From Terriglobia bacterium (GTDB taxonomy: Bacteria > Acidobacteriota > Terriglobia > JAIQFV01), in assembly GCA_020072965.1 (NCBI GenBank), contig JAIQFY010000023.1, positions 1 to 64,000 on the forward strand: a stretch of 64,000 nucleotides of DNA, in the 5' to 3' direction. The position numbers were made by a program, and so were the translations under genes. How positions within the stretch are numbered: position 1 is the stretch's first letter; each line of letters begins with the position of its first letter. Positions 11,383 through 14,566 of this stretch are shown here, piece by piece. A model generated the notes under the pieces. It worked only from the letters and a program-made list of their open reading frames with translations. It was not told the origin of the DNA and did not search any database.

Positions 11383-12258
11383 CTAATGCACCGCCACCAC
11401 ATCGATACGAACGTCTTTCCGTCGAGATTTGACTTTGAATCGATTCAGATCCGCAGATGAAACCTTGGCATCATTGTTGAGGGTTGCCAGATAAGTATTG
11501 GTTTCGCGATCGTATATTTCCCGGGCGACCCGTCCGACATCTTCCAATCCATTCAGGCGGAACGCCCGCCCTCCTGTTTCCTCCGCCAGGCGAATCAGGT
11601 CTTTGTCCAGGTACTTGAAATCAAATATGGTCTTCAGTGCCTTGATATGATTGATTTCATAGAATGCAAAGCCACGGCTGACCAGAGTTTTTTGGACCTC
11701 GCCCCACAGGTTGGACGGCGAGTCGTCAGTTCCATCGGAAAAGGCGACAAGCACTTTGCGGGTGTCTTTCGACGGTCCGGACATCTTTGAATCGAACTCG
11801 GAGAGGGAGGCCAGGATATCTTGTGAGAGGGGAGCGATGCCTCCAAACTTGATTTTTTGAAGGGTACTGACCAGTTCATCGGGGGATCTCTGATAAGAGC
11901 TCAGGAATTGCTGGCTCACGTTGATGGTGGCGATGGCCATCTCGAGTTGGGGCGGCTTGATATCGATGAATGCCGCCACCAGATCCTTCATCAGGGCCCT
12001 GTTGTTCATGGCGGTGTAGCTGGTATCGACCAGAAGAACCATCCGCGGAGGCCGTTTGGTCTCCCACTTGAGGGAATCCAATGTGACCATGCGCCCATCC
12101 ACCCTCAACTCAATATCACTGGGGCTGAGGTCTTTGACAGTTTGATTTTCTTTGTTGTAGGCAACCAGTTCGATGGTCGCGGTAGTCTGCGCCGGAGTGG
12201 TGTGAAGCGAGCAAACGAGCAGCGCCGGGAAGACTCCCCATCGTACTGATCTGATCAT
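11383..12258 (-). CDS. VWFA-domain protein (acidobacterial exported type)
   Basis: 291 aa with an N-terminal signal peptide (MIRSVRWGVFPALLVCSL...). A short beta domain (LVAYNKENQTVKDLSPSD) is followed by a von Willebrand factor A domain from about residue 70. The metal-site strand reads VLLVDTSYT, close to the DxSxS consensus. The later VLVAFSDGTDD supplies the second conserved acidic loop. Exported VWFA-related proteins of this layout are expanded in Acidobacteriota, but their ligands are unknown. The start lies 42 bp from the target duplication of the neighbouring transposon-like element, so its promoter may have been displaced by that insertion. Confidence 0.8.
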   Translation of the reverse strand: MIRSVRWGVFPALLVCSLHTTPAQTTATIELVAYNKENQTVKDLSPSDIELRVDGRMVTLDSLKWETKRPPRMVLLVDTSYTAMNNRALMKDLVAAFIDIKPPQLEMAIATINVSQQFLSSYQRSPDELVSTLQKIKFGGIAPLSQDILASLSEFDSKMSGPSKDTRKVLVAFSDGTDDSPSNLWGEVQKTLVSRGFAFYEINHIKALKTIFDFKYLDKDLIRLAEETGGRAFRLNGLEDVGRVAREIYDRETNTYLATLNNDAKVSSADLNRFKVKSRRKDVRIDVVAVH

Positions 12259-12300: not shown

Positions 12301-12308
12301 TAATTTTA
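12301..12308 (+). repeat. Target-site duplication, left copy
   Basis: TAATTTTA directly abuts the left inverted repeat and is identical to the copy at 14559-14566. If the duplication is excised, the flanks join as one continuous intergenic sequence. Confidence 0.75.
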
Positions 12309-12330
12309 GGTAGTGGGTCAGTTTCCGAGT
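12309..12330 (+). repeat. Left terminal inverted repeat
   Basis: The 22 bp starting GGTAGTGGGTCAG are the exact reverse complement of 14537-14558. Similarity stops at the inner edge of the repeat. Confidence 0.8.
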
Positions 12331-12405
12331 TGTGCGTGATCCACCCGCAATCGGCGGCATGCGTCAATGGACCTCCAAGTTTCCACGCCGGTGGGCACCG
12401 GCTAC

Positions 12406-13638
12406 TTACTCAATCTCCCGCACCGGCTTCTGAAACGCAGCTCCGGCGGCAGCCAGCACCATGAGTCCTCCAGCGAGCAGAAACATGAGCTTCAAGTTCC
12501 ACGCAACTAAGAATCCTGCAACCGCGAGGGAGATAGGGGTTATTCCGAAGGAGGCTAGCATGAGCACGCTCGCAACTCGCCCGCGCACCGCGACATCGAT
12601 CCGCTGCATGATCCAGGCGCCGATGTGGATGTTGACCATTCCCGCCGCTACCCCCATGATCAACAGCGCGCTGGCGATGCTCCACACTTTCCCCAGCAGG
12701 CCGATGGATCCCAAGCAGGCACCCAACGCCAACGACACCAGAAGAATCATCACGCCGCGCTGGCGAATCTTCCAGGCACCGGCCAGTAGCGCGCCTAGCA
12801 AACTCCCCGCGGCAACCGCCGAGATCACAATGCCGTACACGGCAGGTGAACCGAATCTCGTCTTGGTCAAGTACGCCAGACCAATCGAAACCGGCCCGGC
12901 AATGCAGAAGTTCAGGATCGTGACCAACAGCATCAGCGAGCGCAGCGGCACATCTTTTCCTACGTAGACGATTCCCTCCACGATCGAGTGCAACATCGCT
13001 TTCCCGGCAGTCTGAGACTTAGGGGGATCCGGCAGCTTCCACAGTGCGCCAATGATAAACAAGAAACTGATCGCATCCACGAAGAAGGCCCATGCCACAC
13101 CCAGCGTTTTGATCACAAACCCGGCTGGAACTGGACCAACAATGGTGGTCATCTGCGCCGTGCTTTGCCTGACTGACGATGCCGCGACCAGTTGTTCGCG
13201 CTTCAACAGCGAGGGCATGTAGGCCGTTTGTGCAGGAACGGCAAATGCATCGGCCACGCCAAAAGCAACCGCCAGAGCGTATAGCTCCCAGGTCCGCAAG
13301 ACGCGCAGCCAGACCAGAACACCGATCACCGTGACACAGATAGTGCGCGCCATCGCCGTGGCAATCATGATCTTGCGCGCGGACATACGATCACTGACGG
13401 CGCCGCCCATAAGCATGAGCAGAGCGCGCGGAATAGCGCCTGCCATCATGATTGCGCCCATGGCCACAGCGGAGCCGGTCTGCTGCAAGACGAGCCAGGG
13501 CAAAGCGACAAAATAGAACTGGTCGCCCAGCAGCGAAATCGTGCCGCCGATCAGCCAGAGGCGATAATTCGGGTTGCGCAGCGGATGCTCGACGGCTGTG
13601 ATGGGCACATTTGCAGTGAAAACGGTTGCAGCAGCCAT
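12406..13638 (-). CDS. MFS transporter, drug/siderophore exporter type
   Basis: 410 aa with about 12 hydrophobic helices. The N-terminal half (NPNYRLWLIGGTISLLGDQFYFVALPWLVLQ, seen in two blocks) and the loop GGAVSDRMSARKIM match the MFS exporter group related to enterobactin and macrolide efflux proteins. It is an inner-membrane, proton-driven exporter. The substrate is unknown; a toxic compound sensed by the adjacent TetR repressor is the likely case. It is divergently transcribed from the TetR gene across a 145-bp region with a palindromic operator. The two genes are the only contents of the repeat-bounded element. Confidence 0.87.
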   Translation of the reverse strand: MAAATVFTANVPITAVEHPLRNPNYRLWLIGGTISLLGDQFYFVALPWLVLQQTGSAVAMGAIMMAGAIPRALLMLMGGAVSDRMSARKIMIATAMARTICVTVIGVLVWLRVLRTWELYALAVAFGVADAFAVPAQTAYMPSLLKREQLVAASSVRQSTAQMTTIVGPVPAGFVIKTLGVAWAFFVDAISFLFIIGALWKLPDPPKSQTAGKAMLHSIVEGIVYVGKDVPLRSLMLLVTILNFCIAGPVSIGLAYLTKTRFGSPAVYGIVISAVAAGSLLGALLAGAWKIRQRGVMILLVSLALGACLGSIGLLGKVWSIASALLIMGVAAGMVNIHIGAWIMQRIDVAVRGRVASVLMLASFGITPISLAVAGFLVAWNLKLMFLLAGGLMVLAAAGAAFQKPVREIE

Positions 13639-13716
13639 AAGACTCTCCTCAATGCGTTTACCGGCGTGGAAAGCCCAGAAAGCATCAGCCGGTTGTGCGG
13701 TTTCATATCATTAAAC

Positions 13717-13738
13717 GTAAATGTATATTTACATTTAC
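13717..13738. promoter_or_regulatory. Palindromic operator between MFS and tetR genes, overlapping a promoter
   Basis: GTAAATGTA (13717-13725) and TACATTTAC (13730-13738) are perfect 9-bp arms around a 4-bp centre, a typical TetR-family operator. A -35-like TTTACA at 13728-13733 and a -10-like TATTAT at 13751-13756, 17 bp apart, would drive the regulator gene, so the bound dimer would cover that promoter. Control of both divergent genes is inferred. Confidence 0.6.
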
Positions 13739-13783
13739 ATTCATGTCAAGTATTATTGTACCCGCCTGATATAATGCAAAGCC

Positions 13784-14440
13784 ATGGCCCAGAAAACACT
13801 CGCTCCCCAACAAGCCCGCAGCCGGGAATCGATGCGTAAATTGTTGAAGGCAGCGGCGGAAGTCCTGGGACAGCACGGACTGGAGGGCGCCACCATTCCG
13901 CGCATCGCCCGGCACGCGGGATTGACGCCCGGGGCCATCTATCGCCGTTTTCCTGACAAGGACGCGCTGCTCGAAACGGTGATCATCGGCATCTTGGAGC
14001 GTCAGGACGAGAGGCTGCGCATGATGCTCACGCCCGCCATGGCGCGCCAGATTCCGCTGGCCGTGTTTGCCGAGCAGCTCATCAACAACATGCTGGTCAG
14101 CTACCGCGCCAACGCCGGACTGTTCCGTGCCCTCCGCCAGTTCGCGCAGGGCCGCGATCACACGTTGTTTTACAGGAAAGTCACCAGGCTGGAGATGCGC
14201 ACCTACCAGTACGTGGTCGAGTTGTTCTTGGTACATCGGAAGGAGGTCAAGCATCCCGACCCGCAAATGGCGGTGTCTTTTGCCCTTATGATGCTGGTCA
14301 GCACTCTGATAGAGCTGATTCTGGTGGATCACGATATGAAGAACTGGCAGGCCGTGATTCCAAAGGATGACCTGTCACTTAAGCGCGAGCTCCTGCGCTC
14401 TTTTCTGAGCTATTTGGGTATTGAGCATAAGAATAACTGA
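13784..14440 (+). CDS. TetR/AcrR family transcriptional repressor
   Basis: 218 aa. The N-terminal DNA-binding domain at residues about 15-60 is clear: RESMRKLLKAAAEVLGQHG, then ATIPRIARHAGLTPGAIYRRF and PDKDALLETV. The C-terminal ligand and dimer domain is all-helical and unassigned. It probably represses itself and the divergent MFS exporter through the 22-bp palindrome between them, releasing on binding the exported compound. Both genes sit inside the element bounded by inverted repeats. Confidence 0.9.
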   Translation: MAQKTLAPQQARSRESMRKLLKAAAEVLGQHGLEGATIPRIARHAGLTPGAIYRRFPDKDALLETVIIGILERQDERLRMMLTPAMARQIPLAVFAEQLINNMLVSYRANAGLFRALRQFAQGRDHTLFYRKVTRLEMRTYQYVVELFLVHRKEVKHPDPQMAVSFALMMLVSTLIELILVDHDMKNWQAVIPKDDLSLKRELLRSFLSYLGIEHKNN

Positions 14441-14536
14441 ACGCTGCACCAATAATTACAATCCGCCCCTCGCTTGCCGTGCCCGCCCTCACATTTCGAT
14501 TTAAGCCACTACGCGGCAATTTCCGGTTAGTCGGCT

Positions 14537-14558
14537 ACTCGGAAACTGACCCACTACC
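14537..14558 (-). repeat. Right terminal inverted repeat
   Basis: Exact inverted copy of 12309-12330, ending CCCACTACC at the outer edge. Confidence 0.8.
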
Positions 14559-14566
14559 TAATTTTA
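14559..14566 (+). repeat. Target-site duplication, right copy
   Basis: TAATTTTA, identical and in the same orientation as 12301-12308, directly outside the right inverted repeat. Confidence 0.75.

Follow-up and report, generated by a model that had tools for sequence, protein, structure and literature searches.

How do two complete genes come to lie between matched transposon-like ends that leave no space for a transposase? This question is raised by a 2,250-bp element at positions 12309–14558 of the window, by which we mean the whole stretch of 64,000 nucleotides that was analysed. The reading that we favour, with a probability of roughly 0.87, is that of a non-autonomous transposon of the mobile insertion cassette (MIC) type, which carries an efflux unit and is moved in trans, most likely by an IS1-like transposase.

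The element is bounded by two perfect 22-bp terminal inverted repeats, GGTAGTGGGTCAGTTTCCGAGT at 12309–12330 (plus strand) and its inverted copy at 14537–14558 (minus strand), which are in turn flanked by exact copies of the 8-bp target duplication TAATTTTA at 12301–12308 and 14559–14566. An earlier note on this DNA had placed both the repeats and the duplication correctly. A search of the window for GGTAGTGGGTCAGTTTCCGAGT at up to 3 mismatches returned two matches, both at the ends of the element, with none expected by chance (100 dinucleotide shuffles of the window), and no third copy was found in the window's own 5.9-Mb genome. The ends extend past the perfect 22 bp and belong to a degenerate end family that is ~36–40 bp long. 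A comparison of 19 elements identified two types of subterminal box in this family, of which the window element has one each: a B-type box on the left (CCGAGTTGTGCGTGATCC..., 12325–12348, plus strand), with CCGGTTTGCCCGTCATTCG as its counterpart in a copy from the congeneric genome G001, and an A-type box on the right (CCGAGTAGCCGACTAACCGG, 14519–14542, minus strand). Only ~100 bp of spare DNA separate the genes from the element end on each side, and neither the open reading frames nor Pfam revealed a transposase within the element, which bears out the earlier statement that there is no room for other genes.

The insertion itself can be seen by comparison with G001, the only congeneric genome compared, where the left and right flanks of the element are contiguous on contig C8 and the element is absent. 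In a base-by-base alignment, the G001 site reads GGCA-AAATTTGTACCCTGAATTC, with the single octamer AAATTTGTA, and the window site reads GACA-TAATTTTA-element-TAATTTTA-CCCTGAATCC; a few bases of the octamer differ between the two species. Because the flanks are joined in G001, with the element missing and one octamer present, the window contains a genuine insertion, and this insertion at 12301–12308, with its 8-bp duplication, postdates the split of the species from its congener. The empty site that the earlier note had proposed to look for in related genomes therefore exists. On the left, the insertion lies 42 bp from the start of the VWFA gene (11383–12258, minus strand, start at 12258), as had been claimed, and these 42 bp are all that is left of the native upstream sequence. 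Upstream of VWFA there is now the exporter gene, on the same strand, and a search for terminator-like sites in the interval between them gave none. Judged from this arrangement, VWFA may have lost its promoter through the insertion, and it may also receive new read-through from the exporter side.

The two passenger genes are divergent, and Pfam supports the pair that the earlier note had named. An MFS exporter of 410 aa (12406–13638, minus strand) matches MFS_1 and, below the cut-off, the H+ antiporter group TIGR00900; a TetR-family regulator of 218 aa (13784–14440, plus strand) matches TetR_N with an E-value of 1.7e-16. The label “resistance-type” that had been given to the exporter is a guess at the level of the family. 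A presumed TetR operator, the 25-bp palindrome GTAAATGTATATTTACATTTACATT, is located at 13717–13741 and overlaps both divergent promoters. Its first 24 bp, GTAAATGTATATTTACATTTACAT, are identical in all four known copies of the module, in which substitutions and indels have altered the rest of the intergenic region, and promoter-like hexamers on both strands overlap them; conservation and overlap together make GTAAATGTATATTTACATTTACAT a likely TetR operator. The efflux unit is self-contained, comprising exporter, TetR repressor, shared operator and promoters. Until it binds the exporter's substrate, TetR would repress both genes via the palindromic operator.

The other copies of the module are located at a separate locus of G001 (contig C52, locus L081; 93% nucleotide identity) and in the genomes G075 and G276, which belong to a different family, f6 (91%). 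Across these copies, exporter identity is 90–93%, and RpoB identity there is 79–80%. When the window's genome is compared with G075, RpoB is 78.9% identical in amino acid sequence, with 45% of four-fold sites identical, versus 93.3% and 84.5% for the exporter and 92.3% and 84.5% for TetR. Since the exporter is conserved above RpoB, silent sites included, these alignments show that the gene pair has moved horizontally between bacterial families. The window holds the one intact copy of the MFS-TetR element that is known, as the outer tip has been lost from the others: the G001 copy has CCGGTTTGCCCGTCATTCG at its left and no outer tip, in the G075 copy, AGTTGCCCGTCATTCG follows an eroded tip, and the G276 copy has CGGTTTGTCGACAACCC at its right. 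From their similarity to the family ends, we infer that these bordering sequences are remnants of element ends. The earlier note had held that modules without repeats at the same flanks would speak against transposition; the copies found lie elsewhere and carry such putative remnants. The G001 copy on C52 is surrounded by many dispersed repeats of 50–270 bp that also occur in the window's own genome (contigs C8, C16, C60 and C91), and an apparent REP-associated (IS200-like) transposase fragment, judged by eye, lies beside it.

The ends are not confined to this module. A search with the 19-bp tip GGTAGTGGGTCAGTTTCCG, in which the outer 16 bp are followed by CCG (CCG-type ends), recovered 51 loci from GTDB genomes, nearly all of them from Acidobacteriota. 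Tips were counted as paired when a second, inverted tip was present and the flanking octamers matched with no more than 1 mismatch. This yielded 16 pairs with 8-bp duplications in 14 of the 51 loci, and none when the flanks were read 15–40 bp further out as a control. The duplicated octamers are mutually unrelated (ATCAGTTG, TATGCTAG, CAAGGATG, GCTGATTG, CATCCAGT, GAAAGTCG, GACGCTCG and others), and the paired elements range in size from about 270 to 2,300 bp. Most of them contain one or two plausible genes, different each time, including a glyoxalase, a RibD C-terminal domain (RibD_C), a MOSC protein, an outer-membrane barrel, a SnoaL protein, small membrane proteins, and an FRG-domain protein paired with GmrSD_N (DUF262-type); the last of these pairs, at L105:2098-4009, resembles a defence module. 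Two short paired elements in L110 (270–315 bp) are non-coding. The terminal repeat is thus a transposon end, as had been proposed, that is used with 8-bp duplications across Acidobacteriota, and by the same comparison these ends are shown to carry many other single genes across the phylum. Shortened to 18 bp, the tip had exact matches in 38 of 399 genomes sampled across the class, compared with none for the reversed control, and these were concentrated in f6, to which G075 and G276 belong. A clean duplication is absent from L055/L114 and from L039. One further candidate, L052, had been taken for an element bearing a glycosyltransferase; it proved to consist of two separate miniature elements that share no duplication.

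After the sequence TTTCCG, A ends continue with ...GCCGAC... and B ends with ...GC[CG]CGT.... One A and one B end were present in 16 of the 17 elements in which both could be classified (permutation P 0.0006), where the rule was fixed after the data had been seen and P was calculated from the same data. An out-of-sample attempt with 20 more regions gave one classifiable pair of cargo size (L222), which was A+B. As the rule is drawn from its own data with a single new case, it is provisional, and the apparent A/B pairing is a lead rather than a result. Just inside the left tip, an IS30-like transposase gene is present at L206:4013-5207 and at L112:3365-4333, and L127 and L083 are possibly alike, with a comparable GGTCGATG/GGTCGACG motif ~40 bp inwards; IS30 elements may use the subterminal region as a target.

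Which enzyme would move such an element? With GAA rather than CCG after them, the outer 16 bp also delimit autonomous elements that encode an IS1-related transposase of 276–296 aa. These partner transposases match DDE_Tnp_IS1 with E-values from 3e-8 to 5e-5, and their top match in NCBIfam is transpos_IS1 (53–62 bits, below the equivalog cut-off of 100). Their alignment reveals conserved CDE, TTD and VERQN motifs, which we take to be the catalytic DDE residues. IS1-like transposases are present in 113 of 299 genomes of the class, and GGTAGTGGGTCAGTTT-type ends with an exact 8-bp duplication surround them in 13 of the 31 loci inspected. The window's own genome encodes a single one, within a 3,533-bp element on contig C80 (tips GGTAGTGGCTCAATTT, duplication GGGCCCCC) that differs from the window element by 2 mismatches in 16 at the tip and also in its subterminal sequence. 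In G001, the left tip of an IS1-like element is exactly the window's 16 bp, followed by an unlike subterminal part. Other CCG-type ends were not found in the window's own genome, where the 15-mer matches that remain when 2 mismatches are allowed look like chance, the reversed control having given as many. The common 16-bp tip and the equal duplication length make the IS1-like transposase the best candidate, and such enzymes probably move the window element in trans. In this mechanism, a DDE transposase, most likely IS1-like, would bind the ends in trans and move the whole unit. Miniature elements of ~89 bp with a GAA-type tip were observed in the genome G020 (L060:696-784, L062, L052), which has about 80 tip matches.

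The subterminal parts differ from those of IS1-like elements, so that another enzyme is possible. The A and B ends of the CCG type would then be served by a different transposase, and the 16-bp tip shared with IS1-like elements would reflect common descent or convergence only. We consider this unlikely, although it is by some way the strongest competitor. It is supported by the conservation of the CCG-type ends over ~36–40 bp and by their A/B asymmetry, which the ends of IS1-like elements lack, and it is consistent with an IS1-like gene being found in 0 of the 51 CCG-type loci and a transposase-bearing element with a CCG-type subterminal region in none of the material searched. However, the 16-bp tip and the length of the duplication are identical in both groups, and the CCG-type loci contain no consistently placed transposase: among one-sided loci, with reading frames judged by eye, only an IS30-like (L112) and an IS630-like gene (L088) were seen, in inconsistent positions, and the IS30 copies look nested.

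Far less probable is a composite, in which the genes would lie between two independently inserted miniature elements and be moved by the two jointly. Precedents are the TIME-COMPs, Tn3-derived miniature elements that carry genes and in which non-autonomous ends mobilise them (PMC13367494), and miniatures with ends of the present kind do exist, as in G020 and L110. TIME-COMPs, however, are Tn3-type composites between two whole miniature elements, whereas the window element is one unit: it has no two complete IS or miniature copies and no inner copies of the ends, one duplication brackets the whole, and the empty site is single. The earlier note had itself raised the prospect of a widespread intergenic motif, REP-like or regulatory, next to which the duplication would be a coincidence. 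Within the class, the 16-mer tip does indeed recur often (in 38 of 61 genomes when 1 mismatch is allowed), but the octamer-matched tip pairs and their empty control, the unoccupied site in G001 and the transposase genes inside many pairs tie the repeats to transposition and make this reading very improbable. Insertion of an integron-like or site-specific cassette by a recombinase, which the highly diverse single-gene cargo might bring to mind, is the least credible of all, as unrelated 8-bp duplications with inverted ends are the signature of a DDE transposase and not of site-specific recombination.

The preferred reading, a MIC-type transposon moved in trans, can be set against known systems. 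MICs are defined by inverted repeats, the lack of a transposase gene and a target duplication, with a history that goes back to MIC231A1 and IS231A (PMC3913671), and the window element has two inverted repeats, a target duplication and passenger genes without a transposase. MIC231 of Bacillus cereus, mic-qnrD and mic-qnrS2 likewise combine inverted ends, a target duplication and a cargo that replaces the transposase, and their mobilisation in trans is presumed or shown. Unlike MIC231, with its IS231 ends, and mic-qnrD, with its 2-bp CA duplication, the window element has ends of the IS1-like type and 8-bp duplications, and it belongs to a large acidobacterial family with many unrelated cargos and two subterminal boxes. 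The IS1-like elements of the class that hold a transposase share its outer 16 bp, exactly at one end in G001 and with 2 mismatches in the window's own genome, and likewise duplicate 8 bp; the window element lacks their transposase and has CCG... in place of their subterminal GAA.... ISsaga treats MITEs, MICs and transporter ISs (tIS) as known relatives of ISs (PMC3129680). The IS1595-linked tIS also combine IS-like ends with passengers that have no part in transposition (PMC3129680), but they have gained passengers and kept the transposase, whereas the window element has none; no IS1595-family model was among the matches of the partner transposases.

A description of the CCG-type family was not found in the open-access literature, and the group is apparently undescribed. 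New here are its scale and anatomy: one end family with many cargos and two end types in Acidobacteriota. A broader interpretation, to which we give slightly less than an even chance, is that of a dedicated gene-shuttling system of Acidobacteriota, in which transposase-free elements with A and B ends would repeatedly take up complete genes, singly or as small operons, and distribute them among families by means of transposases encoded elsewhere. This would be a bacterial counterpart of the Pack-TYPE transposons, non-autonomous plant elements with captured host coding DNA (PMC8903248); the likeness is one of analogy only, the genes in the window element, and most cargos of the other bacterial elements, being complete reading frames. 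Searches for transposases or integrases miss such cargo, yet the efflux unit crossed between families. With a defined end sequence, the cargo of soil Acidobacteriota, a phylum that is dominant but little understood, can be inventoried, and both the mobilising transposase and the way in which complete genes enter between the ends become testable.

Tandem elements that share one octamer were observed at L097:2435-3488 and L206:4005-7343 (GCCTGTCC three times; GCTTTCCC/GCTGTCCC), and repeated insertion at one octamer could assemble larger multi-gene units. Four further loci (L088, L117, L131 and L033) have a common flank, GCCTTTTG, adjoining the tip, which suggests either that the insertion is orthologous in all four or that a common repeat was the target.
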